From Terriglobales bacterium (lineage in GTDB: Bacteria; Acidobacteriota; Terriglobia; Terriglobales; Acidobacteriaceae): a DNA stretch of 64,000 nt. Positions 44,666-59,679 of the stretch are shown in pieces. The position numbers were made by a program, and so were the translations under genes. The stretch is taken from contig JAOAPE010000002.1 of NCBI GenBank assembly GCA_025462725.1, positions 248,001 to 312,000 on the forward strand, written 5' to 3'. A model generated the notes under the pieces. It ran no database searches. It was not told where the DNA came from and saw only the letters and a program-made list of their open reading frames with translations. How positions within the stretch are numbered: position 1 is the stretch's first letter; every line of letters starts with the position of its first letter.

Positions 44666-45490
44666 TCAAGGCGCGACTTTCATCAGCCCCACCCTCGTCT
44701 GATTCAACGTTGTAAATAGCGACTCCTTCGGCACCTCAGTGATGAACGGCTTGATCATCCACCCAAGCCCCGCGGGAATATCGCGTGTCAGCGATATCGC
44801 TTCGCATTGCACGTAAACGCCGCCGTCTTTTTCTTCCATTCGCCAGTAGGAGTTGAGCGCCCAGAGAAATCCATTGTCGTGGCCTTCGGGTTTCTCGCGC
44901 TCGTCTTTCGTATCCGCGTTCTCCACCTCGGCCACATGTGTAGTGTGCGAGATGCTGAACGCGCGGGTTGCTGACACAGTCTCATAATGCGCGGCGTGCT
45001 CCGTGTTCATAGTCACGGCAATGACTTTCTTCTGGTAAAAGCGCAGAAACGCTTTGAAGTCGTTGCCCTTTCGGCTTATGAGACGTGAATCTGCGACCTG
45101 CGGCTTGTATAGATTCTTATGGTTGTTGTAATCCTGCAGCAGCGCTAGCGTGGACTTGAGACTTGCGCCCGGAATGAAGACAGTCCCGATCCAATGATGA
45201 ACAAGCGCATTGGGTACTTCTATTGCTTTCCCGTTTTCCTTCTCTTGAAGCGCCTCAGTAACCACCTCACCGGACTTTAGCTTCGCCAACATCTCGTTTC
45301 GATGCGATACCTCCACTCCCTCAACCCAGAGAAATGCTTTGTTCTCCTTCGCGGCTGCGGATATTTCACCTTGCATGCGTGCCTCTGCGACTTGCGAATA
45401 GTGGTCGAATGCCTTCCTCGTCGCGGGTTTCAACTCCGCCGCGAAGGCTTGTTGGGAAAGGACTAGAAGAATGAAAGCAAAGTAGCGCAT
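44666..45490 (-). CDS. secreted protein, possibly START/SRPBCC-like
   Basis: A 274-residue protein with a signal peptide (about 1-17). The rest shows no motif that I can name with certainty. The repeated alternation of beta strands and a long C-terminal helix (DIPAGLGWMIKPFITEVPKESLFTTL) is compatible with a ligand-binding SRPBCC/START fold. It is divergent from the gas-vesicle ATPase gene, 53 bases away. Confidence 0.6.
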   Translation of the reverse strand: MRYFAFILLVLSQQAFAAELKPATRKAFDHYSQVAEARMQGEISAAAKENKAFLWVEGVEVSHRNEMLAKLKSGEVVTEALQEKENGKAIEVPNALVHHWIGTVFIPGASLKSTLALLQDYNNHKNLYKPQVADSRLISRKGNDFKAFLRFYQKKVIAVTMNTEHAAHYETVSATRAFSISHTTHVAEVENADTKDEREKPEGHDNGFLWALNSYWRMEEKDGGVYVQCEAISLTRDIPAGLGWMIKPFITEVPKESLFTTLNQTRVGLMKVAP

Positions 45491-45543: not shown

Positions 45544-47505
45544 GTGGCGGAACTCGCGTTTTTTATCGGCAAAGGCGGCGTCGGCAAGACTACGATTTCC
45601 TCCGCATACGCCGTCCGCGAGGCCGCTCGCAATCCGCGCAAGAAATTCCTGCTGCTCTCCACCGATCCCGCGCACTCACTCGCTGATATCTTCAAAGTGA
45701 AATTCGGCGACAAGCCGCAGCGCATTCGTCTTTCCCTTGGCGGACAACTCTTCGCATGGCAGATCAACGCAGAAAAACAATTCCGTTCTTTCCTCGAACC
45801 GTATCGTGAAGACCTGCTTAACTTGATCGAAAGTGGCACGATTTTTTCCCGCAGTGAGATTGAGCCGCTCCTGGAAACTACGCTCCCCGGTATGGCCGAG
45901 CTTTCTGCCCTCATCGCAATAGACGAACTGCTGCGCGAGGGTCGCTATGACCGCATCATCGTGGACACCGCTCCCATCGGCCACACTTTGCGCATGTTCG
46001 AGTTGCCGCAGCACTTCGCGCGGTTCCTCGAGTTCCTCGATCTCGCCGGAAGCCGCGACCGGTGGCTCTCGCAACGATTCAGCAAGAGCGGCGCGAAGTC
46101 CGGCTCGCAGCCATTCCTCGAACGTTGGCAGGAGATGGTCATTTCGGTCGGCGCGGCTCTGACCTCTGAGAATTCGGAATTGTTCATGGTGACATCGCCC
46201 GAGGAATTTTCGTTGAACGAAGCAGCTCGCTCTGCAGACGCGCTCGCTGGCTCCGTCCCGGGCCTGGCCATCAGCGGGATAGTCTTGAATCGTGCCGTTC
46301 AGGGCAAGAACTCATGCGACATCTGTGCCAGCCGCGCGAGCATGACTGCATCCGCAAAAAAGTTCATCGCGAAGAACTTCCCTGACGTCCCAGTCCTCGT
46401 CGGCGAAGATGCAGGCAATCCCGTTCTCGGTGCTGGCGAACTGCTCAAATTCGGCGAGCATGTCTTCGGAAAAAAGAAGCTGGCTGCTTCCCCCGCTGCC
46501 TCGCGTGCAAAAATGCCCGAAATCGAAACCGCGCCGTGGCCGGAGATCACAGCTCCATTGATTTTCACCATGGGCAAGGGTGGCGTTGGCAAAACCACCG
46601 TCTCTGCTGCACTTGGATTCCGTCAACGACTTGAAACCGGTCAACCTGTCACGGTCTGCTCCACAGATCCCGCGCCGTCACTCGACGACGTCTTCCAAAG
46701 CAACGTCAGTTCCAAGCCCAAACCGGTTCTAGGAGACAAGCATTTCGAAGCGCTCGAGGTTGATTCCGTCGGCGAGTTTCGGGCTTGGGCGAACGCCATG
46801 CAGGACAAGATCGCTGCCGCTTTCTCGACGCAATCAGCCAGCGGCATCCACGTGGATCTCTCGTTCGATCGTCAGATATTCTCCTCGCTGCTGAATATCG
46901 TCCCGCCCGGCGTGGACGAGATCTTCGCGATTTTCAAAATCCTCGACCTGCTCCGTTCCGAAAATAAGGGTGCGCGCCGCACCGTTATCATTGACATGGC
47001 TCCCACAGGACACGCCCTTGAACTGCTACGCATGCCGGAGCGCATGCTGATGTGGTCGCGCCTGCTGTTGAAAAGCCTCGCACCGCACCGTACACTACCT
47101 CTCGCGCAGGATGTGGCTGTTGAGATCGCTGGGTTAGGACAACAGGTACGCGAGTTGGTGAATATTCTGCAGGATCCCGCTCGCTCATCAGCCTTCGCCG
47201 TGATGTTGGCCGAGCCTATGCCTGATCGGGAAACCTCGCGGCTGCTGGATACATTGAAAGAGTTGCCGGTTTCCGTAGAAGCAGTATTCGTAAACCGCAT
47301 CCTAATGCCTGTGTCGAACAAGGTTGCTGCCCGATGCGCCCGATGCGATCGCGCCCGGCGGTGGCAGATAGCAACATTGGCGGGTTTGAAGAAACGATAT
47401 CGCGGGAAGGCCGGAGCGATTTACCTGCTGCCGAATCTTCCCGATGAGATCGCCGGAAAGAAAGCGTTGCAATCGTTCACCAAAGAGTTATGGCTACTAG
47501 CCTGA
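45544..47505 (+). CDS. tandem ArsA/Get3-type ATPase, first gene of gas-vesicle cluster
   Basis: A 653-residue protein with two homologous ATPase halves. Walker A is GKGGVGKTT at 9-17 and again at 344-352. Switch I reads DPAHS (41-45) and DPAPS (375-379), and switch II reads DTAPIGHTLRM and DMAPTGHALELLRM. Each half carries a CxxC pair (Cys258/261 and Cys598/601). Yeast Get3 has such a CxxC, which binds zinc at its dimer interface, so this looks like a fused Get3-like dimer rather than an arsenite pump ATPase. The GTG start has no clear ribosome site. It overlaps the next gene by 16 bases. Confidence 0.88.
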   Translation: MAELAFFIGKGGVGKTTISSAYAVREAARNPRKKFLLLSTDPAHSLADIFKVKFGDKPQRIRLSLGGQLFAWQINAEKQFRSFLEPYREDLLNLIESGTIFSRSEIEPLLETTLPGMAELSALIAIDELLREGRYDRIIVDTAPIGHTLRMFELPQHFARFLEFLDLAGSRDRWLSQRFSKSGAKSGSQPFLERWQEMVISVGAALTSENSELFMVTSPEEFSLNEAARSADALAGSVPGLAISGIVLNRAVQGKNSCDICASRASMTASAKKFIAKNFPDVPVLVGEDAGNPVLGAGELLKFGEHVFGKKKLAASPAASRAKMPEIETAPWPEITAPLIFTMGKGGVGKTTVSAALGFRQRLETGQPVTVCSTDPAPSLDDVFQSNVSSKPKPVLGDKHFEALEVDSVGEFRAWANAMQDKIAAAFSTQSASGIHVDLSFDRQIFSSLLNIVPPGVDEIFAIFKILDLLRSENKGARRTVIIDMAPTGHALELLRMPERMLMWSRLLLKSLAPHRTLPLAQDVAVEIAGLGQQVRELVNILQDPARSSAFAVMLAEPMPDRETSRLLDTLKELPVSVEAVFVNRILMPVSNKVAARCARCDRARRWQIATLAGLKKRYRGKAGAIYLLPNLPDEIAGKKALQSFTKELWLLA

Positions 47506-48329
47506 AGAAATCAAAATCCCGGAAAGCTGAAAAGCGACAGCCCACGCCCAAGTCGAACTCCCGCGTGCTCACCATTCCGGTGAATCGAATTCCCAAGCAT
47601 CAGCCTCAAGCCAAGGCACTCTATTTGTACGGCGTTTCCAAGCCCGAAAGACTCAATCTTCCCAGCATCTCCGTTCCCGGCATTGATGGCGAGCACAGGA
47701 TCGAAGCCATTCACTGCGCCGGACTTTTATGTTGGATCACCCGCGTGAACGCGCAGGAATTTGCCGCTGAGTTGAACCGCAAAATGGAAGAACTGGAATG
47801 GCTCGCTGAATCGAGTGTTCGACACCAGCGCGCGGTCGCCGCGATATCCGCGAAAACAACGCTGCTGCCAACTCGCTTCGGCACCGTCTTCCTTGGCGAG
47901 AACTCACTGGCCGCCGACATTGCCTCGCGCAAGCCCACGCTCAACGCCGCTTTCAAGCGAGTCGCTGGCGCAGACGAATGGGGCGTGAAAGTTTTCCTTA
48001 AAGCGCAACCGCAACCCGCTGTTGAAGCCACCTCCGGACGCGACTACCTGCAGAAGAAAGCGCAATCCATCGCGGCCAGCGGGAAGCCCGCGCCTGATGC
48101 GGAGATCGACGCCTTCTTCGCTCAGCTAACGAAGATTGCCACGGCGAGTGCCGTTACCGGCAAGGTCAGCAGTGGACAGCAAGGATTGCAATGGCAAGCA
48201 TCATTCCTGTTGCCGCGCAGCCGCCGCAAGAAGTGGGATGCAGTGCTGAAAAAATTCGCCGAGCAGTGGGCGGGAAAGCGGAAGATAGAATCCTCCGGCC
48301 CCTGGCCGCCGTATTCATTCGTGGAGTAA
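47490..48329 (+). CDS. gas vesicle protein GvpF/GvpL family (first copy)
   Basis: A 279-residue protein. About 40 N-terminal residues are basic and disordered (KKSKSRKAEKRQPTPKS). The GvpF/L core follows (ALYLYGVSKPERL, then ELEWLAESSVRHQRAV, RFGTVF) and ends in GPWPPYSF. GvpF/L proteins are accessory factors that help assemble the gas vesicle wall. It overlaps the ATPase gene by 16 bases, which fits co-translation. Confidence 0.9.
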   Translation: MATSLKKSKSRKAEKRQPTPKSNSRVLTIPVNRIPKHQPQAKALYLYGVSKPERLNLPSISVPGIDGEHRIEAIHCAGLLCWITRVNAQEFAAELNRKMEELEWLAESSVRHQRAVAAISAKTTLLPTRFGTVFLGENSLAADIASRKPTLNAAFKRVAGADEWGVKVFLKAQPQPAVEATSGRDYLQKKAQSIAASGKPAPDAEIDAFFAQLTKIATASAVTGKVSSGQQGLQWQASFLLPRSRRKKWDAVLKKFAEQWAGKRKIESSGPWPPYSFVE

Positions 48330-48339
48330 CTCCGAAAAT

Positions 48340-48582
48340 ATGGCCACGCCACCACAACGCGTATCACTGGGTTCCGCTACCGACTCCAATGACGAAGTCT
48401 CCCTGCTTGAGATTCTCGATCACGTCCTCAATTCCGGAGTGGTCATCCAGGGCAGCATTGTCATCTCCGTCGCTGGCGTGGATCTGCTATACGTCGGATT
48501 AAACGTCGTGCTCACCTCGGTGGAAACCGCGCTGAAGACGTTGCGCAATGAAGAAGCTGCCGCCCGCAAGCAGCTGCGCTAG
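48340..48582 (+). CDS. gas vesicle structural paralogue, GvpS-like
   Basis: An 80-residue GvpA-family protein. The core SLLEILDHVLNSGVVIQGSIVISVAGVDLLYVGLNVVLTSVETAL resembles GvpS or GvpM more than GvpA, because the conserved DKGIVIDAW of GvpA is replaced by NSGVVIQGS. It is a minor wall or nucleation protein. It lies ten bases after the first GvpF/L gene. Confidence 0.85.
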   Translation: MATPPQRVSLGSATDSNDEVSLLEILDHVLNSGVVIQGSIVISVAGVDLLYVGLNVVLTSVETALKTLRNEEAAARKQLR

Positions 48583-48594
48583 AACAACAATCCA

Positions 48595-49251
48595 ATGCTC
48601 CTCCTCTATTGCGTCACAGAATCCGTCGCCGATGCGCACATTCCCGGAGTGCATGGCAGCCCAGTTTCAACCATCGCTGAAGGTGGAGTGCTCTGCCATT
48701 CCAGCGAATGGTCGGAGCGAAATAAGGATGACGCTCAGCAGGACGCTCTGGCTTATTGGTCGGTAGTGAACCGCTTGTTCCAGCAAACGGCGGTTATCCC
48801 GTTTCGTTTTCCCACGTTCATGAAGGACCAAGCCGCAATGCAAGAATTTCTCGCGCTGAATGCGCAGGGATTCCTGAGCGAACTCCGCCGCCTCCGCGAT
48901 TTGGTTCAAATGCGAATCACTATTCCCTCCGAACCTACCTCCAATGCGGCCCCACCAACTTCCGGAACAGAATTCCTCAAGCAACGGCAGAAATCATCGC
49001 GCGTTTCGCAAGACACCATTGCCGCCCTGAGAGCCAGCGGAGAAGACCTGGTCCGCGAATGGAAACAGTCCCATCGCACAGGTTCCACTCTTCTATTCGC
49101 GCTTATCGGACGAGGTGCGCTTGAAGACCTCAAGTCGCGGATTTCCCAAATCGAAGCTTCCGCAAACGTCCGTGTCTCCGGCCCTTGGCCGCCAAGCGAA
49201 TTCATCAAGTGCGAGTTGGAACTCCCCATGAGCACAGAAACGACCCTATGA
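48595..49251 (+). CDS. gas vesicle protein GvpF/GvpL family (second copy)
   Basis: A 218-residue GvpL-type protein. It starts MLLLYCVTESVADAHIPG, has AVIPFRFPTFM in the middle and ends with the family's GPWPPSEFIKCELEL. Unlike the other two copies it has no basic N-terminal tail. It is 12 bases after the GvpS-like gene, and its stop overlaps the gvpK start by four bases (ATGA). Confidence 0.87.
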   Translation: MLLLYCVTESVADAHIPGVHGSPVSTIAEGGVLCHSSEWSERNKDDAQQDALAYWSVVNRLFQQTAVIPFRFPTFMKDQAAMQEFLALNAQGFLSELRRLRDLVQMRITIPSEPTSNAAPPTSGTEFLKQRQKSSRVSQDTIAALRASGEDLVREWKQSHRTGSTLLFALIGRGALEDLKSRISQIEASANVRVSGPWPPSEFIKCELELPMSTETTL

Positions 49252-49613
49252 AGGATCCTAACCAAGTCACTCCCGCCGACGTTGAAGCTGCAATCTCTGA
49301 TCTCAAACGTCAGTTGCAGACGGCCGCCTCTGGCGGACAGCAAAGAATCGAATGTGACGGCGAAAATATCGAGCAGGGGTTGGCGAAGTTAGTATTAACT
49401 TTGATAGAATTCCTTAGACGCCTGCTCGAGCGTCAGGCCATCCGGCGCATGGAAGGTGGCTCCCTCAATGACACCCAAGTGGAAGAATTGGGTACCGCAT
49501 TAATGAAGTTAGAGCAAAAGATTCATGAACTTACGAACACTTTCGGCCTGAAACCGGAAGACTTAAACTTGGATTTGGGGCCAGTTGGGAAGCTTTTGGA
49601 TGACGACAAATGA
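49248..49613 (+). CDS. gvpK: gas vesicle protein GvpK
   Basis: A 121-residue protein. The pattern ECDGENIEQGLAKLVLTLIEFLRRLLERQAIRRMEGGSL is the GvpK hallmark, and LMKLEQKIHEL follows. GvpK is a minor accessory protein needed for gas vesicle formation. It is translationally coupled to the second GvpF/L gene by an ATGA overlap. Confidence 0.92.
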   Translation: MKDPNQVTPADVEAAISDLKRQLQTAASGGQQRIECDGENIEQGLAKLVLTLIEFLRRLLERQAIRRMEGGSLNDTQVEELGTALMKLEQKIHELTNTFGLKPEDLNLDLGPVGKLLDDDK

Positions 49614-49867
49614 ACCGCCGGCCATCCACTTCTTTAACCCTGAAATTTTTACACGAAGCCTGACAACTCGGCACCTGAGTACCGCATCTGAGACTCAGGA
49701 TACAAACTTTCAGACTCAAATACCAGGCAGACCGCACCAGCAAGCCCCCCGCAAAACAATTTGAAGTTTAGCTGTTCACAAAATGCTTGAAGATGCTGTA
49801 ATCTGCGACTCCCACTTTCTCAGTATCGAAATTGGAGTCTGCTCGCACGGAAGAACGTCTTACTGAC
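49614..49867. other. 254-base non-coding gap inside the gvp cluster
   Basis: No gene. It holds a perfect short palindrome, ctgag-a-ctcag (49688-49698), and is the only large gap in the cluster. It is therefore a candidate internal promoter and control region for gvpJ-gvpA onwards. I see no clear -35/-10 pair or sigma-54 site. Confidence 0.4.
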
Positions 49868-50257
49868 ATGGAAAGAGTACCCACAGTTTCCGGCACTACA
49901 AACCTGATTGATATCCTCGACCGGGTTTTGGACAAAGGTCTCGTGATCGCGGGCGATATCCGCGTCTCGTTGGCCAATGTCGAGTTGCTAACCATTCGCA
50001 TCAGGTTGCTGGTATGTTCCGTCGATAAGGCAGAGCAGATCGGCTTAAATTGGTGGAAGCACGATCCTAACCTGACAACCCCTCTTCCCGCTCCGATATC
50101 GCAGTTAGGATTGCCCCCAAGCGGAAAGGTACCAAGGAGGAGGACGGTCACTCGCACATCTGTGCAAGCGCCCACAACGGCAGCAAGAGTAGTTCGCAAG
50201 AAGACAACAAAATCAAGTTCAAAGAAAAAAAGTACGGTGCCCAGCCGGCGGAAGTAA
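49868..50257 (+). CDS. gvpJ: gas vesicle protein GvpJ with basic tail
   Basis: A 129-residue GvpA-family protein. The core [51 protein letters not shown] is the GvpJ pattern, with AGD at the position where GvpA has DAW. The last 40 residues are Lys/Arg/Ser/Thr-rich (RRRTVTRTSV, then RKKTTKSSSKKK) and unusual for GvpJ. The ATG at 49868 is preferred to a TTG at 49832. Confidence 0.9.
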   Translation: MERVPTVSGTTNLIDILDRVLDKGLVIAGDIRVSLANVELLTIRIRLLVCSVDKAEQIGLNWWKHDPNLTTPLPAPISQLGLPPSGKVPRRRTVTRTSVQAPTTAARVVRKKTTKSSSKKKSTVPSRRK

Positions 50258-50286: not shown

Positions 50287-50601
50287 ATGGCAGTTGAGCG
50301 TGTATCTGGTGGATCAAGTCTTATTGACGTTCTTGATCGCGTCCTCGACAAAGGTATCGTCATCGATGCCTGGGTCCGCATCTCCCTGGTCGGTATCGAC
50401 CTCATCACCGTGGAAGCCCGCGTCGTCGTGGCCTCCATTGACACATATTTGAAGTACGCCGATGCAGTCGGACTCACGGGTCTGGTATCGCGGCCGCAAC
50501 TTGAGGCTCCCGACGAAGTCGAAAGCATCGAAGAAGTGGAAACAACCCGTCGTCGCACCGCGAAACCTAAGGTGCGCAGGGCGACGACTGCACGCCGCTA
50601 G
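50287..50601 (+). CDS. gvpA: major gas vesicle protein GvpA with C-terminal extension
   Basis: A 104-residue protein. Residues 1-68 match the highly conserved GvpA core ([20 protein letters not shown], then [33 protein letters not shown]). GvpA is normally about 70-75 residues; here about 36 extra residues carry acidic then basic sequence ([10 protein letters not shown], then [12 protein letters not shown]). The tail should face the outside of the vesicle wall. The gene sits 29 bases after gvpJ. Confidence 0.95.
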
Positions 50602-50657: not shown

Positions 50658-52781
50658 TTGGCAACGCCGCAAATGCGCTTGAAATCTCTGGAACTGGTGA
50701 AGGGTGGCGGAAATATCCTGAAGGAAGCGGACTCCCGCATCCCCGCTACCCTGCGCCTGCTCCATGCTGAGCGTTCAGATGAGATCTTCCCCATCCTCAT
50801 GGAGGAGATCGTCAAGCTTGGTTATCCCCGCGCGTTTGTTCTTTCTGTAAATTTCGAGACCGGTGAAGTCTCACCCATCGCGGGTATTAAGTGTTCTGAT
50901 TCTTACCTGCAAAAATTCCGTACTTCGCTCTACGCGGATCACCCCATCGTCAGCATCTTTCATGGCCTGAAGCCGAGCATACTTCCACGGTCATCTTCCA
51001 CGGGGCGTGCCCTCTATTGCCACCCCATTATTTATCGAAATCCAAATCAATGTTGGGAAGCGGAGCGCCAACGTCGGCCAGAATGTATGGCCACTGATAA
51101 CTTCCGCAACGCGCGCAAGCTAAGTCTCGAAGGCCAGCAATGCAAGACCTGCGAGATGCGCTCCTACGCAGCCGCCATTGTCGTTGAGTTTCCGAAAAAA
51201 GCCTCTGAGCGCGCCGTCGGCGAGCTGGGCACTCTCATTGAACTCGCTAACAAGTATCTCGCCCGTCTCTTCAAGATTGAGCATTATTACAACCGCATGC
51301 GAGACATGGAAGACACCATCTCGCAGATGAATGCGGTCATGATGAGCATGGCCGATCCTGTCGTCCTGACTGACATGCACTTCCGCGTGGTCATGCAGAA
51401 CCAGGCTGCAGCCAAGTTCTTCAAACTTCCTGACGAGACCACGGAAGGTCTCATCCGCGCGATCGAACTCAACAACATGCTGTTCTCCGCCGCGCTGTCC
51501 TCCATGGCGATATCCGGCACTGAGACCCATCGCGATCTCACGCTCGTCGATCCCAACGAAGGCGAAGAACTCCTTTTCGAAGCTGTTTGCGTGCCATCAT
51601 TCACCCGCGAAGGCCTGCCATCGGGACTCGTCACCGTCATGCGCGATGTTACCGACCTCCGCCGTGCTGACCAGGAATTGCAAGCGAACTACGAAAAATT
51701 GCGTGCTGCTGAAGATGTCGTTCGTCAAGACCGTGACCGCCTCAACCTCATCATTGAGAACGTTGGCGATCCAATCATTGTTTGCGATAGCGACGGCAAA
51801 GTTGTACTCGTCGATCCCTTGGCAGAAGCCCTCTTTGGTAGTGATACTGACCGTGATCCAACACGTGTCACCAATCAGGCAGTGCTCGATGCCTACGTCA
51901 GCAACTTCACCTATTCATTCTCTGACACTGTCACCCAGGCTCTGAACTTTACCGATCCGAGCACGCTGCAAGTAACCGAGTTTGACGCCCGCTCCGGCAA
52001 GATCTACGACGAACGCGGACAAGTCGCCTACACCGTCACGGTGCTTCGCGACTGGTCGCCGATCCGCAAGCTTGAGCAGCTCAAAGTCGAGCGCCGCATG
52101 TTGGAGATCGAGAAGTTCGCCTCCGCCGGACGCCTCGCCGCCACCATCGCCCATGAAGTCAACAATCCCATGGAGGCGATCAAGAACGCTATCTACCTGC
52201 TCGCGGGCAAGGTGAAACCGGAAGCTGAACCTGTTTACGGCATCCTGAAATCTGAGACCGAGCGCGTTGCCCGCATCGTTCGCCAGATGCTTGGACTCTA
52301 TCGCAACCAGGAATCCGTCAAGCCGGTGAATGTAAACACTCTCGCGGAAGACACGCTTCTTCTGCTTGCACGCCAATTGCAACGCTCCAACGTTGAAGTG
52401 GTGCAGGAGTTCGCGGAGCTTCCTCCTGCCGTCGTGTCTTCTGACCAGATGCGTCAGGTTTTTTCTAACATCGTCATCAATGCCAAAGACTCAATGCCGA
52501 ATGGCGGCAGGTTAAAGATTCGCACTCGGCAGATTCGCAGTTCTGACGGCCTTCATGGCTGGATTCGCGTGCTCATCGCCGATACCGGCAGCGGCATTCC
52601 CAAAGACATCCTCGATTCAGTCTTTGAACCTTTCGTCACCACCAAGGGCGAAAAGGGTACAGGCTTGGGGCTTTGGATCGTTAAAGGCATCATCGGTAAT
52701 CACGGAGGCAAGATCTCCGTCCGCAGCAAAGTGGGATTTGGGACCGTTTTCAAGATTGATCTACCGATGGTGCGCCTATGA
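50658..52781 (+). CDS. sensor histidine kinase with Cys-rich N-terminal domain and two PAS domains
   Basis: A 707-residue cytoplasmic kinase. The N-terminal 215 residues form a GAF-like or unknown sensor with Cys79, 121, 132, 143, 162 and 165; the last pair is CKTC. PAS domains follow (about 222-335 and 360-470), then HisKA with phosphoacceptor His499 in IAHEVNNPMEAIKNA, and a HATPase_c domain with GTGLGLWIVKG. No membrane helix is seen, so it senses an internal cue. The spaced Cys set could hold an Fe-S cluster or zinc. The start is TTG, with GGAGGAAG upstream. It overlaps the next gene by four bases. Confidence 0.92.
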   Translation: MATPQMRLKSLELVKGGGNILKEADSRIPATLRLLHAERSDEIFPILMEEIVKLGYPRAFVLSVNFETGEVSPIAGIKCSDSYLQKFRTSLYADHPIVSIFHGLKPSILPRSSSTGRALYCHPIIYRNPNQCWEAERQRRPECMATDNFRNARKLSLEGQQCKTCEMRSYAAAIVVEFPKKASERAVGELGTLIELANKYLARLFKIEHYYNRMRDMEDTISQMNAVMMSMADPVVLTDMHFRVVMQNQAAAKFFKLPDETTEGLIRAIELNNMLFSAALSSMAISGTETHRDLTLVDPNEGEELLFEAVCVPSFTREGLPSGLVTVMRDVTDLRRADQELQANYEKLRAAEDVVRQDRDRLNLIIENVGDPIIVCDSDGKVVLVDPLAEALFGSDTDRDPTRVTNQAVLDAYVSNFTYSFSDTVTQALNFTDPSTLQVTEFDARSGKIYDERGQVAYTVTVLRDWSPIRKLEQLKVERRMLEIEKFASAGRLAATIAHEVNNPMEAIKNAIYLLAGKVKPEAEPVYGILKSETERVARIVRQMLGLYRNQESVKPVNVNTLAEDTLLLLARQLQRSNVEVVQEFAELPPAVVSSDQMRQVFSNIVINAKDSMPNGGRLKIRTRQIRSSDGLHGWIRVLIADTGSGIPKDILDSVFEPFVTTKGEKGTGLGLWIVKGIIGNHGGKISVRSKVGFGTVFKIDLPMVRL

Positions 52782-53200
52782 GCACGGGTTCGAAAAAGTC
52801 GCCGAGCAAGGCACGCGTGCTCGTTGTGGACGATGAGTCCTCGGTCTTGTTCACCTACAAGCTGATTTTGGAGCAGCAGGGCTACGCCGTGACCGCGGCG
52901 ATCTCCTCAGAGGAAGCAAAGCGGGCCATCGAAGCGCAGGAGTTTGATTTGGTATTGTGTGATTACTCTTTAGAACAACAGCACACCGGTTTTGAAGTCA
53001 TCGCGGCCGCGCGCGCTCGTAGGCCTGACGTCCCCTCGTTGCTCCTTACGGGATACGCAACCATTGAAACAACCGAGCAGGCGAAATCGGACGGGATAGG
53101 GGTGTTATTCAAGCCCATTGATATCGCGGAATTTCTGAGCACCACTTCCGCATTCTTGAGGAACGAACATGAGTCCCAAAAAGTTAACAAAGACGAGTAA
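52778..53200 (+). CDS. receiver-only response regulator
   Basis: A 140-residue single receiver domain. The phosphorylation site is Asp62 in LVLCDYS, with the acidic pair in VVDDE and the Thr/Lys switch residues in LLTGYAT and FKPID. There is no output domain, so it works through phosphotransfer or protein contact. It overlaps the histidine kinase by four bases (ATGA) and the following GvpF gene by 32 bases, so the three are translated together. Confidence 0.94.
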   Translation: MSTGSKKSPSKARVLVVDDESSVLFTYKLILEQQGYAVTAAISSEEAKRAIEAQEFDLVLCDYSLEQQHTGFEVIAAARARRPDVPSLLLTGYATIETTEQAKSDGIGVLFKPIDIAEFLSTTSAFLRNEHESQKVNKDE

Positions 53201-54113
53201 GCCAGCCAAGAAGAAGAGTACGGAAAAGATCTCGTCGATTAAGAAAACCACCAATGGCAATGGAAGCTTGACCTCCATTGATGTCAACAGCATGGCGTCA
53301 CAGCAGTTCGCTGCCGCCTCTATCTCCCGCATGGCAGAAGGCCAGGACGGAGTAGAGGGCCGCTACGTCTACGGCATCATTCAAGCCAATCAACCTGCGA
53401 CCTTCGGCAAGACGGGAATAGGCGGCTCCGGCGAGAGTGTTTACACCGTCCACCATGGCGACGTTGCCGCCGTAGTAAGCAAGACCTCCGTCTTCATCTT
53501 CGACCCCACGCGTGAAAACGCGCTCGCTCACGAACACGTGATTGAAACCGTCATGAAGACCAATACCATCATCCCCATGAGCTTCGGTACTGTCTTCCGC
53601 ACCGATCAGGACATCAAGGAAGTCCTCAAGAGTATCTATCCGTCTTTGAAAGATGTTCTCAAGCAGATGTCCGGCAAACTGGAGTTCGGATTAAAAGTCA
53701 CTTGGGATCGTGACCGAGTCATCGAAGAACTCAAGCGCAATCACGAAGAGATTCACCGCTTCCATATCGAGCTGACGAAGAAGCACTTGCAATCCACTTA
53801 CTTCGCTCGCATGCAGTTGGGTCGCATGATCGATAAAGCCCTCGCCGAGCGCTCGGCGGATTATGTTCGCGAGATCTATGACGCGCTTCGTTCCATCTGC
53901 GTCGCATCGCGCGACAACAAGCCTATCGGCGACAAGATGATCATGAACGCGGCATTCCTCATCAACCGGGACCGTGAAGCTCACTTCGACGCTGCCGTGA
54001 ACAAAGTGGCGCAGAAGTTTGCCGACCGCTTGAATTTCAAGTACACCGGCCCTTGGCCTCCGTATAACTTCGTCAACATTCGCCTCAAGTTGGAGAGAGG
54101 AACATCGTCCTAA
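53169..54113 (+). CDS. gas vesicle protein GvpF/GvpL family (third copy)
   Basis: A 314-residue protein, the longest of the three. A Lys/Ser-rich N-terminal tail (about 1-30) and a linker precede the GvpF core (GRYVYGIIQANQP, then VHHGDVAAVVSKT, IIPMSFGTVF). The protein ends GPWPPYNFVNIRLKLE. It overlaps the response regulator by 32 bases. It is probably the GvpF of the cluster. Confidence 0.92.
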   Translation: MSPKKLTKTSKPAKKKSTEKISSIKKTTNGNGSLTSIDVNSMASQQFAAASISRMAEGQDGVEGRYVYGIIQANQPATFGKTGIGGSGESVYTVHHGDVAAVVSKTSVFIFDPTRENALAHEHVIETVMKTNTIIPMSFGTVFRTDQDIKEVLKSIYPSLKDVLKQMSGKLEFGLKVTWDRDRVIEELKRNHEEIHRFHIELTKKHLQSTYFARMQLGRMIDKALAERSADYVREIYDALRSICVASRDNKPIGDKMIMNAAFLINRDREAHFDAAVNKVAQKFADRLNFKYTGPWPPYNFVNIRLKLERGTSS

Positions 54114-54122
54114 GTTTCGAAC

Positions 54123-54446
54123 ATGATCTTCAGCTTGCTCACATTGCCGATCGACGGATTCAAGTTCATCTTCAACACGCTCGCCAAAGTTGCGGAAGAA
54201 CAATGGACAGACGACGCGCCGCTTAAAGAGCAGTTGCTGGAGTTGCAGGTCCATCTCGAGAATGGCGACATCACCGAAGATCAGTACGTAGAAGCCGAAG
54301 CTGAAATCTTGCGCGCCTTGCGTGACATTCAAAATCGCAAGCGCGAACTTGCAGGCGCTCCTCCAGAGGACGGCACCGGACTCTCCGGCAAAGTCGAAGA
54401 AGGCTCCGGCGCTTCTATTACTTTCAACATTGACGAACGCAAATAA
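54123..54446 (+). CDS. gvpG: gas vesicle protein GvpG
   Basis: A 107-residue protein. It starts MIFSLLTLPIDGFKFIFNTLAKVAEEQW, the GvpG hallmark, and has a helical middle (LLELQVHLENGDITEDQYVEAEAEILRAL). GvpG interacts with GvpF/L in assembly. It is the last gene of the gas-vesicle module, nine bases after gvpF. The next gene, a rhomboid protease, starts 46 bases later. Confidence 0.93.
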   Translation: MIFSLLTLPIDGFKFIFNTLAKVAEEQWTDDAPLKEQLLELQVHLENGDITEDQYVEAEAEILRALRDIQNRKRELAGAPPEDGTGLSGKVEEGSGASITFNIDERK

Positions 54447-54492: not shown

Positions 54493-55368
54493 ATGGCTAA
54501 TTGCGCCACCTGTGGAACTGCATTACAGACCAGCCCCTTCGGAGGCACAGAACCGATTTGCGTAGCCTGCGAGCCGGCTTCCGCCCTCGCCCCAGCGCAG
54601 CAGAACTCCCCAGAAAGCGAGCAGCAGCTTTCCATCTCCACCGCAGATCAGACCTTTCGCACCACCACCTACATCGTCCTCGCCAACGTTCTCTATTACC
54701 TTTACTTCGTCGCGATGATTTATGCGCGCTATGGGCAAGTTCTCTTAGGTCCGATAGACGCTCGGTTTTACCTGCTTTTCGGTGCCGACCAGGGCCAATT
54801 CACCTTCGGCGGACAATACTGGCGCCTGCTCGCTAGCAATTACATCCACTTTGGCGTTTACCACTTGCTTGGCAACATGTGGTGCCTGTGGGGACTAGGC
54901 CGCCTCACCCAACTCTTTTACAGCCCTCGCAACTACTTCATGGTTTATACCTACGCTGGGCTATGCGGAAGCCTGCTGAGCGTATGGGCACATCCTCAAG
55001 TCATCAGCGCAGGGGCATCTGGTGCAGTTTTTGGCGTGGCGGGTGTGATGTTGACCACCCTGCAGTTCGGCAAACTTCCTATCGACAAACAGGTAAGACA
55101 AAACATTTTCAAGGGCGTGCTGCAGTTCGCGGCCCTGAACCTTGTCATCGGGCTCGCCATCCCTCACGTGGACAACATCGGTCACATTGGCGGACTGCTC
55201 TCAGGAATGCTGTTGGGGATCGTCTTTGGCAAGCATCTCGACAGCTCAAAAAAATCGCGCAAGTATCGCCGCGTAGCCTGGCTCTCGTTGATCTTCTTCT
55301 ATCTACTCGCGTTGATTTATGTCGCTTTTACTTGGAACGGAGTCTCTTTTCATGTGACCCGCACCTAG
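54493..55368 (+). CDS. rhomboid-family intramembrane serine protease with zinc ribbon
   Basis: A 291-residue protein. The first 30 residues form a zinc ribbon (Cys4, 7, 23, 26). Six to seven membrane helices follow. The catalytic Ser176 is in GASGAVFG, and His231 in DNIGHIGGLL completes the dyad. Rhomboids cut substrates within the membrane. It is in line with the gvp cluster and the SPFH gene, so it may belong to a super-operon. Confidence 0.9.
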   Translation: MANCATCGTALQTSPFGGTEPICVACEPASALAPAQQNSPESEQQLSISTADQTFRTTTYIVLANVLYYLYFVAMIYARYGQVLLGPIDARFYLLFGADQGQFTFGGQYWRLLASNYIHFGVYHLLGNMWCLWGLGRLTQLFYSPRNYFMVYTYAGLCGSLLSVWAHPQVISAGASGAVFGVAGVMLTTLQFGKLPIDKQVRQNIFKGVLQFAALNLVIGLAIPHVDNIGHIGGLLSGMLLGIVFGKHLDSSKKSRKYRRVAWLSLIFFYLLALIYVAFTWNGVSFHVTRT

Positions 55369-55446
55369 CCTGGTGCCCAGCCACTCTGGATTGGCGAAAC
55401 TTCCCCGGGCGTACTATCGTATTCTTTACGAGTGTAAGGAGCAGCC

Positions 55447-56454
55447 ATGTCTCTGAAGGATTTCCTCAAGAAACAGTTTATTGACGTTATTCACTGGACC
55501 GAGCCCAGCGACGGCATTCTCGCTTGGCGCTTCCCTATGCAGGACTTCGAGATCCAGAACGGCGCCAAGCTGACCGTACGCGACTCCGAAGCCGCCGCCT
55601 TCGTGAACGAGGGCAAAGTCGCCGATATCTTTGGTCCCGGCCTTTACACACTCAACACCAACACTCTGCCGCTGCTTACGAACCTGATGAACTGGGAGAA
55701 ACAGTTCCAGTCGCCATTCAAGTCTGACGTTTATTTCTTCTCCACTCGTCAGCAGTTGAACCAGCATTGGGGAACGCCGAACCCGATCACCTTCCGCGAC
55801 AAGGAATTCGGCGCCATTCGCATGCGCGCCTTCGGCATCTACTCCTACCACATCTCTGACGCTAAGGCTTTTTACTCCAAGGTTAGCGGTACGCGTGACA
55901 TCTATACCGTCCCTGAGATCGAAGGACAGCTTCGCAACACCATCATCGGCCGCATGACAGACACGATCGCCGAAAGCACAGTCCCCTTTCTCGACATGGC
56001 CGCCAACCAAATGGAGTTTTCCCAGAAGATCTCGGACTTCCTCGCGCCTTCGTTCGCCACGCTCGGACTCGCACTCGATTCCTTCGTCGTCGAAAATCTT
56101 TCGCTGCCAGATGAACTCCAGAAGCGTCTTGACGAGCGCATTGGCATGACCATGGTCGGCGACATGAACCGCTACACCCAATTCCAGGTCGCCCAGTCTA
56201 TGCCTATTGCCGCAGCCAATGAAGGCGGCGGAGCAGCAGGCATTGGCGCAGGACTCGGCGCAGGCGTCGTCATGGCCAATCAGATGATGAATGCTTTGAA
56301 CCGCCCGGGTGGCGGTGGCGGCGCGGCTCCAGCCGATGCCTCACAAGCTGGCGCCCCAGCAGCAGGTGGCGACACAAAGTTCTGCGGCGACTGTGGCACG
56401 AAAATCCCGAAGGCTTCGAAGTTTTGTGCCAATTGCGGCAAGCCGCAAGCGTGA
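55447..56454 (+). CDS. SPFH domain protein with zinc-ribbon C-terminus (YdjI-like)
   Basis: A 335-residue protein. The SPFH-like core (MQDFEIQNGAKLTVRDSEAAAFVNEGK, then IFGPGLYTLNTNTLPLL) occupies residues 20-240 with a C-terminal helical stretch. A Gly/Ala-rich linker follows (about 255-305). The last 25 residues form a zinc ribbon with Cys313, 316, 327 and 330. SPFH/YdjI proteins form membrane rafts and are often linked to membrane-stress and PspA genes. It is the second gene after the gvp module. Confidence 0.88.
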   Translation: MSLKDFLKKQFIDVIHWTEPSDGILAWRFPMQDFEIQNGAKLTVRDSEAAAFVNEGKVADIFGPGLYTLNTNTLPLLTNLMNWEKQFQSPFKSDVYFFSTRQQLNQHWGTPNPITFRDKEFGAIRMRAFGIYSYHISDAKAFYSKVSGTRDIYTVPEIEGQLRNTIIGRMTDTIAESTVPFLDMAANQMEFSQKISDFLAPSFATLGLALDSFVVENLSLPDELQKRLDERIGMTMVGDMNRYTQFQVAQSMPIAAANEGGGAAGIGAGLGAGVVMANQMMNALNRPGGGGGAAPADASQAGAPAAGGDTKFCGDCGTKIPKASKFCANCGKPQA

Positions 56455-56477
56455 GAAGTTGTTAAGGGAAATCGAAA

Positions 56478-56865
56478 ATGATCAAAAAATTGCTTGTTGC
56501 TGTCTTGCTTGCTTCAGCCAGTCCCATCCTTCTGCAAACGGCTTCGGCTCAAACTGGCTGTGACAAGAAAAGTGAGTTTGTCGTGCGTGAAGTCAGATTC
56601 GAAGAAAAAGCCCTTCTCTCGCCTAAACGATATGCCGCCCTCAAATCAGGTTTAGTAGGCCTGCTACACTCAGGCGCAACTTGGCGACACTACAAAAGAA
56701 GTCTTCCGTGCTCTTAAGCAAGAAGGCTACCGTCACGCCTTTGTGCAAGATCCCATCCTGAAGGTTCTTGACTCAAAACGTAAGCCCAAGCCAGTCTCTC
56801 TCGTTTTCGATGTAAACCCGGGCGCGCGGCAGGTTGCATCCACCCGGAAGCAAGACACTAAATAG
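56478..56865 (+). pseudogene. secreted POTRA-like protein, frameshifted
   Basis: The frame starting at 56478 gives a signal peptide (MIKKLLVAVLLASASPILLQ to about residue 24) and SEFVVREVRFEEKALLSPKRYAALKS, a POTRA-like first strand and helix. It then hits a stop at 56717. Shifting by one base near 56675 gives AQLGDTTKEVFRALKQEGYRHAFV and VSLVFDVNPGARQ, the matching POTRA second half, ending at the TAG at 56865. The repaired protein is about 128 residues with a signal peptide and one POTRA domain. It may be a pseudogene or a sequencing error. Confidence 0.6.
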
Positions 56866-56918
56866 TCTGCGCATAGCAGCGACTTGCGTTAACATCTTCT
56901 GTCCTATCACTCTCACAC

Positions 56919-57287
56919 ATGAGCGGAATCGAATGGATCGTCGAGGCGCACGGCTGTGACCCTCGCGCATTGGCCGATATCGATGAACTGCGCACGCTCT
57001 TCTCGCGCATGATCGCCGACCTCGGCCTCCGGCCCGTCGCCGAAACTCAATGGCATCAATTCCCGGCACCCGGCGGAATCACTGGCCTCTGTCTTCTCGC
57101 CGAATCGCATCTCGCCATCCATACATTTCCCGAACATGGTTCGCTCTGCCTCAATCTGTTCTGCTGCAAGCCACGTCCTGATTGGGATTTCGCCACTTAT
57201 CTAAAAACGCACTTCGCCGCCGATTCCGTCGAGGTCCGCCGTCTCGAACGCGCGTATGCTGCCTCGGCCACGGGAGTCCGCGCATGA
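56919..57287 (+). CDS. speD: S-adenosylmethionine decarboxylase proenzyme
   Basis: A 122-residue proenzyme. Self-cleavage between Glu62 and Ser63 (in LAESHLAIHTF) gives the pyruvoyl group; His68 and Cys residues near FCC are at the expected places. SpeD supplies decarboxylated SAM, the aminopropyl donor for spermidine synthase. It is coupled to the next gene by an ATGA overlap, and a membrane spermidine synthase lies 2.4 kb downstream. Confidence 0.94.
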   Translation: MSGIEWIVEAHGCDPRALADIDELRTLFSRMIADLGLRPVAETQWHQFPAPGGITGLCLLAESHLAIHTFPEHGSLCLNLFCCKPRPDWDFATYLKTHFAADSVEVRRLERAYAASATGVRA

Positions 57288-57925
57288 GCAAGGTCACGCT
57301 GAATTGCCCAAACTGCGGCGCGCCTGTTGAATTCGCCTGGGCCAGCAGTGTGCAAGCTGTCTGCGCCTACTGCGCTTCCATCCTCGTCCGCACTGACGTG
57401 GACGTAAAGAAAGTCGGCGAGGTCAGCGACCTTCCCAATGACGCCTCTCCCATCCAGATTGGCACGGAAGGCATTTACAAGAACCTGGGATTCGTCGTCG
57501 CCGGACGCATCCTTTACGAATACGAGAATGGCGGTTGGAACGAGTGGCACATCGTCTTCAATGACGGCACCAGCGGATGGCTATCTGACGCGCAGCTCGA
57601 GTACACCATCTCCACGCAGTTCAACAGTCCCGGTGCGATCCCGCCCGCCACTGACATCAACATAGGAAAACAATTCCATTGGGGAGACTTGAATTACGAA
57701 GTCACCTCGCTCACGCAGGCGCACTACCGCGGCGTCGAAGGACAACTCCCCTTCCAATACTGGGACAAAGAAGATTGTTTCTTCGCCGACCTCCGCACTA
57801 CCGCCGGACGCTTCGGCACCATTGATTACAGCGATGAAAAGCCACTCGTGTTCATCGGCGAAGCGCTCGACTTCACCGCCTTGAAGTTGAAGAACCTCCG
57901 CGAGTTCGAAGGATGGACGCAATGA
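57284..57925 (+). CDS. DUF4178 protein with zinc ribbon (first copy)
   Basis: A 213-residue protein from the ATG at 57284. An N-terminal zinc ribbon (Cys8, 11, 27, 30; CPNC and CAYC) precedes one DUF4178 domain (VAGRILYEYENGGWNEWHIVFNDGTSGWLSDAQLEY). Function is unknown; DUF4178 proteins are linked to envelope stress and polyamine clusters. It starts in the speD stop (ATGA) and its stop overlaps the next start (ATGA), so it is co-translated with both. Confidence 0.88.
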   Translation: MSKVTLNCPNCGAPVEFAWASSVQAVCAYCASILVRTDVDVKKVGEVSDLPNDASPIQIGTEGIYKNLGFVVAGRILYEYENGGWNEWHIVFNDGTSGWLSDAQLEYTISTQFNSPGAIPPATDINIGKQFHWGDLNYEVTSLTQAHYRGVEGQLPFQYWDKEDCFFADLRTTAGRFGTIDYSDEKPLVFIGEALDFTALKLKNLREFEGWTQ

Positions 57926-59271
57926 GCGCCGCGCCTCCTCCCACTCCGCCCCAATCTCCGAAGCTTTCACGGCCCAGTCTCGTCCGCAAAGCCGTCGGAC
58001 TGAACTGTCCCAATTGCGGCGCAGTCATGACCCTGCGGACTTTTTCCAACGCAGTCAACATCGTCTGTCCCGGATGCGCCAGTGTCCTAGATGCCACTGA
58101 TCCGCGGATGCAGATCCTGCAAGAGGCCTCGAACAGAAAACCTCCAACGCTGCTCCTCCCGCTTGGTTCACGTGGAAAATGGAAAGGCACCAGCTACGAG
58201 GTGGTCGGCTGCCAATTGCGCGCCATCACTGTTGACGGCCAGAGCTATCACTGGTTTGAATACCTGCTCTTCAATCCCTTCGCCGGATACCGCTACCTCA
58301 CCGAGTACGAAGGCCACTGGAATGACGTGACCGTCTGTCGCGCGATTCCCAAGTCGATTTCGAATACCACAAAGCCCAAAGTGATTATGGGCGACCAAAC
58401 ATTCACCCACTTCCAGACTGCGAACGCGACCACCACTTACGTCATCGGTGAATTTCCCTGGCAAGTCCGGCGCGACGACAAGGTCTTCACCAAGGATTAC
58501 ATCTCGCCGCCTTTCATGCTCTCCTCGGAGAACGTCGCGCAGGAGACCACTTGGTCAATCGGCGAATACACATCCGGTAAGGACATTTGGCAGGCATTTA
58601 AGTTGCCCGGCAGCCCTCCATCGCCGCGTGGGATCTTCGCAAACCAGCCATCTCCATTTGCGGATCGCCCCAAGACATTCTGGAATACTTCAGTGCTGCT
58701 TCTGTCGTTGGCTCTTCTGGTGCTGATGATTTCCTATGTCATCTCGTCGAACAAAGAAGTATTCTCCAGCACATACGACTTCTCCCAGCGCCCCGGACAG
58801 GAAGCCTCGTTCGTCACTCCGGTCTTTGAGATCGGCGGACACCCTTCCAATGTCGAACTGAAGATCAACACCGACCTCAGTAACAATTGGGTCTACTTCA
58901 ATTTTGCATTGATAAACGAGCAGACTGGCGAAGCCTACGACTTCGGGCGCGAAGTCAGCTATTACACCGGTTCTGATAGCGATGGGGTTTGGACAGAAGG
59001 CGATCGCAGCAATACCGCAACGGTTCCCACCGTCCCTCCCGGACATTACTACCTCCGCGTCGAACCGGAGATGTCAGCGGGCTCAGTTCCCGTGCATTAC
59101 ACCTTGCAGGTGGTTCGCGACGTCCCGTCCTTCTCGTTCTTCCTGATCGCCGCAGTCTTACTATTGATCCCGCCGATCTGGCTCACGGGACGCGCCTACC
59201 GATTCGAATTCAACAGATGGCAAGAAAGCGATTACGCGGTATCTTCGGGAGGCAGCAGCGATGATGAATAA
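57922..59271 (+). CDS. DUF4178 membrane protein with zinc ribbon (second copy)
   Basis: A 449-residue protein from the ATG at 57922. It has an N-terminal zinc ribbon (Cys29, 32, 49, 52; CPNC and CPGC), then DUF4178 (WFEYLLFNPFAGYRYLTEYEGHWNDV), a membrane helix (VLLLSLALLVLMISYVISS), a beta-rich extracytoplasmic domain with Tyr/Asp (SYYTGSDSDGVWTEGDRS), and a final helix (FFLIAAVLLLIPPIWLTG). It is coupled to the first DUF4178 gene. Confidence 0.87.
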   Translation: MSAAPPPTPPQSPKLSRPSLVRKAVGLNCPNCGAVMTLRTFSNAVNIVCPGCASVLDATDPRMQILQEASNRKPPTLLLPLGSRGKWKGTSYEVVGCQLRAITVDGQSYHWFEYLLFNPFAGYRYLTEYEGHWNDVTVCRAIPKSISNTTKPKVIMGDQTFTHFQTANATTTYVIGEFPWQVRRDDKVFTKDYISPPFMLSSENVAQETTWSIGEYTSGKDIWQAFKLPGSPPSPRGIFANQPSPFADRPKTFWNTSVLLLSLALLVLMISYVISSNKEVFSSTYDFSQRPGQEASFVTPVFEIGGHPSNVELKINTDLSNNWVYFNFALINEQTGEAYDFGREVSYYTGSDSDGVWTEGDRSNTATVPTVPPGHYYLRVEPEMSAGSVPVHYTLQVVRDVPSFSFFLIAAVLLLIPPIWLTGRAYRFEFNRWQESDYAVSSGGSSDDE

Positions 59272-59446
59272 ACTTTATCTCGGTTACGGCGCGTTGATCC
59301 TCAGCCTGCTCGCCACGTCTGAATATCGCGGTTGGAGCATGATGCCTGTCAACCAGCTAAAGGACGTCCCCAAATCTATACGCGATAACCCTGGCGCGTA
59401 TCGTTCGCATTACGCCTTTTATCACCACTACAGCGGAGGCAAGTAA
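59261..59446 (+). CDS. small membrane protein of the polyamine cluster
   Basis: A 61-residue protein. One hydrophobic helix at the N-terminus (LYLGYGALILSLLATSE) is followed by a soluble, His/Tyr-rich C-terminus (SIRDNPGAYRSHYAFYHHYSGGK). I do not recognise a family, though such small proteins often sit between DUF4178 and DUF350. It overlaps the preceding gene (59261 before its stop at 59271). Confidence 0.65.
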   Translation: MMNKLYLGYGALILSLLATSEYRGWSMMPVNQLKDVPKSIRDNPGAYRSHYAFYHHYSGGK

Positions 59447-59448
59447 GA

Positions 59449-59667
59449 ATGAATCCGAGTCCGAATTTTGTGAACAGCATGCTTAGCGCGGTGACGTTTG
59501 CCATCATCGGCATCGTCATCTTCGTGGTCTTCTTCGTGATCCTTGACTGGATCACGCCCTACGACCTTTGGAAAGAACTGAACGAAGAAAAAAATATGGC
59601 ACTGGCGATCGTAGTCGGCGCAGTGGCGCTCGGACTCTGCATCATCATCGCCGCAGCCATTCACTAA
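59449..59667 (+). CDS. DUF350 membrane protein
   Basis: A 72-residue protein with two membrane helices (AVTFAIIGIVIFVVFFVILDW and ALAIVVGAVALGLCIIIAA) and the DUF350 signature DWITPYDLWKELNEEKNMA. It is half the size of two-module DUF350 proteins. DUF350 partners polyamine and PspA-type clusters, but its function is unknown. It lies two bases after the small membrane gene. Confidence 0.85.
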   Translation: MNPSPNFVNSMLSAVTFAIIGIVIFVVFFVILDWITPYDLWKELNEEKNMALAIVVGAVALGLCIIIAAAIH

Positions 59668-59679
59668 AGCGAACCCACA

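Follow-up and report, generated by a model that had tools for sequence, protein, structure and literature searches.

The window analysed here is a stretch of 64,000 nucleotides from a Terriglobales bacterium (assembly GCA_025462725.1, contig JAOAPE010000002.1, positions 248,001 to 312,000), and our subject is the gene that opens its gas-vesicle (gvp) cluster, which encodes a two-domain ATPase of the Get3/ArsA family. Behind this gene come, in order, genes for GvpL/F, a shell protein, GvpL/F, GvpK, a shell protein, a GvpA-like shell protein, a PAS-domain kinase, a response regulator, GvpL/F and GvpG. By sequence, the ATPase appears to belong beside archaeal Get3 and not with the arsenite-pump ATPase ArsA, and the evidence favours a Get3-like protein over the ArsA label. 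A preliminary description of the locus had reported a tandem ArsA/Get3-family protein with two CxxC pairs and a 16-base overlap with the first GvpF/L gene, and all of this holds: a single frame carries two P-loops and two switch regions, PF02374 matches it twice, both cysteine pairs are present (258/261 and 598/601), and the 3′ end of the frame lies inside a GvpL/F frame with an ATG at 47490, overlapping it by 16 bases. The same description had called the motifs intact, which is true of both P-loops and of the N-half switches; the C half is slightly off, with DMAP for DTAP and DPAP for DPAH. The motif names switch I and switch II follow the usage for Get3. The gene and its motifs are:

45544-47505, plus strand: two-domain Get3/ArsA-family ATPase, first gene of the gvp cluster, 653 amino acids, GTG start
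45568-45591, plus strand: P-loop of the N half, GKGGVGKT, residues 9-16 (sequence motif)
45661-45681, plus strand: switch I of the N half, TDPAHSL, residues 40-46 (sequence motif)
45964-45987, plus strand: switch II of the N half, DTAPIGHT, residues 141-148 (sequence motif)
46315-46326, plus strand: CxxC of the N half, CDIC, residues 258-261 (archaeal Get3 zinc column in the alignment)
46573-46596, plus strand: P-loop of the C half, GKGGVGKT, residues 344-351 (sequence motif)
46663-46683, plus strand: switch I of the C half, TDPAPSL, residues 374-380 (sequence motif)
46993-47016, plus strand: switch II of the C half, DMAPTGHA, residues 484-491 (sequence motif)
47335-47346, plus strand: CxxC of the C half, CARC, residues 598-601 (archaeal Get3 zinc column in the alignment)

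Profile searches place the protein firmly in its family. The two PF02374 matches score 317 bits against a cut-off of 24.3, and the GET3_arsA_TRC40 profile (TIGR00345) is exceeded at 311 bits with a cut-off of 135; the arsenite-pump equivalog TIGR04291 gives 162 bits where 650 are required. Weak matches to MinD and ParA-type profiles, which represent the same deviant Walker A class, were also recorded, and the best single sequence match in the PDB is Chlamydomonas ArsA1 (5zme, 1.7e-42). Compared with a 76% identical congener, the gene shows 0.15 nonsynonymous (pN) and 0.70 synonymous (pS) differences per site, the silent sites being near saturation, so both halves are under purifying selection. 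This selection and the relatives found in gvp clusters of several phyla show that the finding is not due to chance.

The history of the two domains was traced by splitting the two-domain proteins at the second P-loop and computing an IQ-TREE tree from 84 rows of half-domains or single domains, 15 of them flagged for unusual letter composition. A selection of the gvp-linked proteins entered this tree (22 two-domain and 2 single-domain), the Get3 side consists of archaeal rows only, with eukaryotic Get3 and Chlamydomonas ArsA1 outside, and two rows served as yardsticks: L075, which matches E. coli ArsA (1f48) at 1e-265, and L130, which matches the Methanothermobacter thermautotrophicus TRC40 structure 3zq6 at 1e-136. 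All 46 gvp-linked rows fall into one group (support 98/92), with subgroups of N halves (100/92) and C halves (99/96), and the N and C halves of true ArsA make up a separate group (100/99). The gvp-linked group sides with four archaeal single-domain rows, two of which have a Get3-type CxxC, at a support of 94/93 that is just below our star threshold. In approximately unbiased (AU) tests, a forced clade of all N halves, gvp-linked and ArsA together, was rejected (p-AU 9.8e-7), as were the corresponding clade of all C halves (p-AU 1.0e-3) and a clade of all two-domain halves (p-AU 0.005). Because the common N-half and C-half clades are rejected, the gvp-linked tandem arose separately from the ArsA tandem. 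A quicker tree of 171 rows has the same groups, with the two CxxC-bearing archaeal rows unresolved.

The cysteines of the protein point in the same direction as the trees. In both halves, the CxxC occupies the alignment column of the CDFC motif of the archaeal Get3-type rows L128 and L130, and in Get3 the CXXC coordinates zinc at the dimer interface, although it is absent from Get3d and not required in all Get3 proteins (PMC10248533). The motif was scored in 43 two-domain proteins of the gvp type (41 whose locus includes a gvp gene, plus L069 and L206, the cut-off 458-residue copy L156 being excluded): 34 have CxxC in both halves, 3 in the N half only, none in the C half only and 6 in neither; the motif is found in 2 of 38 comparison rows, both of archaeal Get3 type, and in 0 of 18 ArsA halves from 9 ArsA proteins. 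One shared zinc fits this distribution, in which a protein tends to have either both motifs or none, with the caveat that the losses are concentrated in few related groups. The arsenite-binding cysteines of ArsA, C113, C172 and C422, are present in 9/9, 8/9 and 9/9 ArsA rows, and the gvp-linked proteins of the tree set have Gly, Lys/Arg/His and Gly at these positions in 22 of 22 cases each (Gly, Arg and Gly in the window). These replacements differ from those given for Clusters 4 and 6 by Castillo & Saier 2010 (PMC2963123); the two accounts share the lack of a conserved cysteine.

A structure model built from the window protein and 27 relatives reached a predicted local distance difference test (pLDDT) score of 87 and a predicted template modelling (pTM) score of 0.88. 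Taken singly, the halves of this model match Get3 structures, the N half with Z 25.2 (3zs9 chain B) and the C half with Z 23.0 (2woo chain A). The modelled whole chain aligns best to closed ArsA 9nbw (Z 32.1, 537 residues, 3.0 Å), and a helix starts at each CxxC pair (259-278 and 599-619). The structure comparison with Get3 and ArsA that the preliminary description had suggested thus confirms the fold of the Get3 and ArsA family and does not choose between its two members.

The chance presence of a true arsenite-pump ATPase beside gvp genes was weighed as an alternative. It draws on the two-domain length, on the ArsA-like fold of the whole chain and on a report on Nodularia that lists as an ArsA gene nsp15480, whose tag number follows directly on the gvp cluster (PMC3610870). 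The replacement of the arsenite cysteines in all 22 proteins, a TIGR04291 score far below the cut-off, the rejected shared fusion and the strict gvp linkage described below make it very improbable, and we have discarded it as a candidate. Neither phylogeny nor structure places the protein firmly among ArsA proteins with arsenic-binding cysteines, and the preliminary claim of a Get3-like protein is upheld by the tree, the zinc-type CxxC and the loss of those cysteines.

Pfam identifies three GvpL/F genes, three genes of the gas-vesicle shell family, GvpK and GvpG as neighbours of the ATPase gene. The genes that follow it are:

47490-48329, plus strand: GvpL/GvpF-family gene (PF06386, 129 bits)
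48340-48582, plus strand: gas-vesicle shell-family gene of the GvpA/J type, 80 amino acids (PF00741, 56.5 bits)
48595-49251, plus strand: GvpL/GvpF-family gene (PF06386, 87 bits)
49185-49613, plus strand: GvpK, start codon uncertain (PF05121, 120 bits)
49832-50257, plus strand: gas-vesicle shell-family gene of the GvpA/J type (PF00741, 62 bits)
50287-50601, plus strand: GvpA-like shell gene (NF006874, 115 bits, cut-off 100)
50658-52781, plus strand: PAS-domain histidine kinase within the cluster (Pfam; matches in many relatives' clusters)
52778-53200, plus strand: response-regulator receiver protein (name read from sequence only; matches near the kinase in many relatives)
53169-54113, plus strand: GvpL/GvpF-family gene, top score of the three (PF06386, 260 bits)
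54123-54446, plus strand: GvpG (PF05120, 59 bits)

Linkage of the ATPase to gvp genes is nearly complete in the window's own family. Among 250 sampled genomes, GvpK was found in 46, and all 46 have a gvp-type ATPase copy, compared with 4 of the 204 GvpK-negative genomes (G471, G518, G551 and G570, at 71-83% completeness). Copies were counted as gvp-type when they matched at E 1e-50 or better, and fragments in G503, G534 and G559 were added to them; the count excludes the weaker ArsA-like rows of G345, G410, G500, G526, G580 and G591 as well as the second rows of G073 and G565. The ATPase and GvpK share a contig in 38 of the 46, with match starts 728-4412 bases apart, and lie on different contigs in the other 8, at least once on long ones (G416). 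GvpL/F follows the ATPase in 16 of 20 inspected family regions (L200-L219), the exceptions being L202 and L203, which have GvpN and another order, L201, the rest of a split cluster, and L206, whose contig ends after the ATPase. A common order in relatives is L/F, G, ATPase, L/F, shell, L/F, K, shell, shell, of which the window has a rotated version.

The association extends to the phylum and beyond. In a sample of 396 genomes from the phylum, 15 of 23 gvp-cluster genomes carry the ATPase beside gvp genes, with clusters split over two contigs in G067 and G254. The 23 are those of 65 PF06386-positive genomes whose locus DNA also shows GvpA and/or GvpK; among the other 42, the five loci inspected (G007, G139, G257, G265 and G367) have GvpL/F only, and 37 single-match genomes were left uninspected. 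A genome was scored ATPase-positive when its locus DNA gave a match of the A1 type beside gvp genes, and weaker matches of the ATPase family elsewhere in the genome (G074, G093, G120, G226 and G325) were not counted; the A1 profile was built from gvp-linked proteins, which makes its score gap partly circular and leaves the tree as the actual test. GvpG labels at relatives' loci rest on the window's GvpG as the only query. Outside the phylum, gvp genes were found at 7 of the best 80 loci of a wider scan, and gvp-linked copies occur, among the matches listed, in Myxococcota, Pseudomonadota, Planctomycetota and Cyanobacteriota; in Chlorobiaceae the gvp-linked copy is a single-domain protein. The preliminary description had made its case depend on finding the same neighbour in other gvp clusters, and the survey found it there, in 46 of 46 GvpK-positive family genomes and in several phyla.

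Given this linkage, we consider it quite improbable that the gene is a passenger, selected for something else and merely co-transcribed with the gvp genes. In the phylum sample, three gvp genomes without GvpN lack the ATPase, as do five with GvpN; in Lyngbya (L069) no gvp gene lies within about 10 kb of the ATPase gene, though the genome has GvpN, and at L068 about 4 kb separate the ATPase gene from the nearest gvp gene. These cases are set against a near-perfect co-occurrence with GvpK in the window's family and a position adjoining a GvpL/F, GvpG or GvpA/J-type gene in most inspected clusters, which differ in gene order and phylum.

Several further features of these loci deserve mention. The PAS kinase and response regulator (50658-53200) are embedded between the shell genes and GvpL/F; matches to the window kinase occur at the loci of 9 of the phylum sample's 14 gvp genomes without GvpN, some of them weak in what is a large family, and also at the Myxococcota loci L066 and L115. 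Strong matches to both the kinase and the response regulator lie near GvpL/F at L171 (G257) and L173 (G265), regions in which GvpA and GvpK were not found. There is a solitary GvpL/F homologue at G000:C70:312697-313401 (L178), and of the 44 family genomes that gave a match 39 have a single GvpL/F match; no other gvp gene was seen in five such regions (L170, L172, L178, L179 and L180), and no neighbour at L178 other than GvpL/F itself is common to all five. The Chlorobiaceae cluster at L089 (9424-13073) combines a single-domain Get3-like ATPase, with Ser-Gly-Phe-Cys in the CxxC place, with GvpN and with Hsp20-like and CDC48-like AAA ATPase genes, both labels being read from sequence. Upstream of the window ATPase gene, at a distance of 53 bases, lies a divergent gene (44666-45490, minus strand) that also has matches in the regions of four congeners (L204-L207). 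Downstream of GvpG (54493-61182) lie genes for what we take to be a rhomboid-like membrane protein, an SPFH-type protein with a zinc ribbon, an AdoMet-decarboxylase-like protein, two zinc-ribbon proteins and a spermidine-synthase-like membrane protein, all named from their sequence only.

The distribution of GvpN bears directly on what the ATPase might do. With the curated GvpN profile, no protein of the window's genome scores over the cut-off, and neither does any in 44 of the 50 family genomes with the ATPase, drafts included; GvpN is over the cut-off in the other 6, in 9 of the 23 phylum-sample genomes with a gvp cluster and in 11 of 13 gvp genomes of a Myxococcota sample (282 genomes, the phylum of L115). 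Many of the surveyed genomes are drafts, which makes single absences of GvpN weak evidence. When Acidobacteriota and Myxococcota are combined, the ATPase is present in 13 of 16 GvpN-less versus 8 of 20 GvpN-bearing gvp genomes (Fisher p 0.019, relatedness ignored), and the corresponding numbers for Acidobacteriota alone are 11 of 14 versus 4 of 9 (Fisher p 0.18). ATPase-positive genomes of the Myxococcota sample are those with A1 matches of about 580 bits or more, the match in G677 lying on a contig separate from that of GvpK. Mutants in GvpN are reported to form bicones that fail to elongate (PMC11445434), so a cluster without GvpN needs an explanation, and the ATPase is the obvious candidate. 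Replacement of GvpN as a repeated, independent pattern was considered and is not shown by these data, given the p value for Acidobacteriota alone and the few state changes on the trees.

We lean, with modest confidence, towards a gas-vesicle-dedicated, covalently fused Get3-type ATPase that acts as an ATP switch for gas-vesicle assembly. The basis of this interpretation is the family and fold, the independent fusion, the conservation of CxxC and loss of the arsenite cysteines, the gvp linkage and the lack of a GvpN found in the genome. With two Get3 domains on one chain, the protein would form a permanent pseudodimer. Like the Get3 homodimer, it might bind a single structural zinc with its two CxxC motifs jointly, and it would open and close as ATP is bound and hydrolysed at the two sites that face each other. 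We suspect that the pseudodimer holds a hydrophobic gas-vesicle protein and hands it over during assembly, the likeliest clients being shell proteins such as GvpA or those of the GvpJ/S type. The hand-over may occur together with GvpF and GvpG, of which the former, and possibly the latter, have been proposed as shell-protein chaperones (PMC11445434). Since it is the sole candidate assembly ATPase recognised in the window's cluster, the ATPase may also supply the energy that GvpN supplies elsewhere, and it probably powers gas-vesicle assembly, notably in clusters without GvpN. A tentative possibility is that it represents a second, GvpN-independent power source for vesicle growth: a bacterial Get3, fused independently of ArsA and recruited to carry hydrophobic shell proteins to the growing vesicle, as a soluble, non-membrane counterpart of tail-anchored delivery, with the single-domain gvp-linked relatives of Chlorobiaceae as the pre-fusion form.

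Several observations weigh against this interpretation. Nine of the 43 proteins lack one or both CxxC, cyanobacterial and planctomycete ones among them. In the region of the client-binding groove, mean Kyte-Doolittle hydropathy, a crude measure, is -0.26 for the N halves and +0.10 for the C halves, compared with -0.23 and -0.48 in ArsA and -0.33 and -0.41 in two archaeal Get3-type rows, so that it does not separate the gvp-linked group, ArsA and the archaeal Get3-type rows and is useless as evidence; many relatives also have a charged K-[HY]-R pattern in this region. Since the whole-chain model aligns best to ArsA, the fold gives no preference for Get3. Of the 14 phylum-sample gvp genomes without GvpN, three (G293, G317 and G325) lack the ATPase too, so the ATPase is not strictly required. 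Lastly, the GvpN state of the 22 two-domain proteins requires one change on the C-half tree and three on the N-half tree, so the GvpN pattern may reflect few evolutionary events.

The nearest alternative to a soluble subunit carrier is a motor that does the job of GvpN on the growing vesicle, an ATP-driven change opening or proofreading the insertion site. The lack of a GvpN over the cut-off in the window's genome and in most family genomes with the ATPase would fit such a role, as would its score below the cut-off in 2 of 6 Myxococcota-sample genomes with the ATPase, and a GvpN-less cluster that elongates would need another energy source, given the bicones of GvpN mutants (PMC11445434). However, GvpN and the ATPase coexist in 8 of 21 survey genomes with the ATPase, and the ATPase family is a dimeric switch, not an AAA+ ring; we therefore regard a motor as rather doubtful. 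Alternatively, the protein could position or partition gas vesicles in the manner of MinD/ParA-type relatives, with which it shares the deviant Walker A class and weak profile matches. The gas-vesicle cluster of Serratia includes a parA gene. By far the best match is nevertheless to the ArsA/Get3 family, in sequence and in fold, and the tandem arrangement and CxxC pairs follow Get3/ArsA and not ParA/MinD, which makes a positioning role unlikely.

How the very hydrophobic shell proteins are kept soluble and inserted into the growing vesicle is an unsolved problem, for which GvpN is the main ATPase under discussion (PMC11445434). The ATPase described here is conserved, dedicated to gvp clusters and easily tested. 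If it works like Get3, the chemistry of Get3 would extend from membrane targeting to the building of a protein organelle, and Get3-like action could account for gvp clusters without GvpN. There is also a naming problem, as the Nodularia gene that follows directly on a gvp cluster by tag number is listed as an arsenic gene (PMC3610870). Furthermore, gas vesicles serve as acoustic reporters, so an extra assembly factor could have practical use.

The preliminary description had held that a Get3-like chaperone for gas-vesicle proteins would be a new function; the gvp linkage and a role in powering vesicle formation are not new. Castillo & Saier 2010 reported two-domain ArsA homologues of about 640 residues in gvp clusters of four phyla, Acidobacteria included, found no conservation of the arsenite cysteines and suggested that these proteins provide energy for some step in the making of gas vesicles (PMC2963123). 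Their Clusters 4 and 6 are like the window ATPase in domain number, length, gvp operon and absence of conserved arsenite cysteines, and their acidobacterial cluster, with two L/F genes and one each of J, K and M, is much like that of the window in gene content. The available text of that paper treats these proteins as ArsA homologues energising an unnamed step and contains neither "Get3" nor "CxxC"; it discusses Get3 under its old name Arr4p, proposes no separate fusion, and names no gvpN in the acidobacterial gene list, without comment. To this the present analysis adds the half-domain trees, the separate fusion, the CxxC pattern, the family-wide co-occurrence with GvpK and the comparison with GvpN. 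In our literature search, outside which lay most subscription journals and all preprints, no paper joined gas vesicles with Get3 or "anion-transporting ATPase", and "tail-anchored" was met alongside gas vesicles in a reference list only.

Among known systems, GvpN is the established ATPase of gas-vesicle clusters, but it belongs to the AAA+ family and its fold differs. ArsA shares two tandem domains and a similar pseudodimer fold with the window ATPase, which differs from it in its separate fusion, in lacking C113, C172 and C422, in its gvp rather than arsenic context, and in having CxxC pairs that are absent from the 9 ArsA compared. Chlamydomonas ArsA1 (5zme), the closest PDB entry by sequence, is a eukaryotic two-domain ArsA/Get3 protein. 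Get3d has a C-terminal alpha-crystallin domain and no CxxC (PMC10248533), whereas the window ATPase has CxxC and no alpha-crystallin domain among its Pfam matches. With Get3/TRC40 the window ATPase shares TIGR00345, the switch motifs, CxxC at the zinc column and the nearest side of the trees, represented there by archaeal rows. Get3 is a single-domain homodimer that targets tail-anchored proteins, whereas the window ATPase is a covalent tandem encoded in a gas-vesicle operon.

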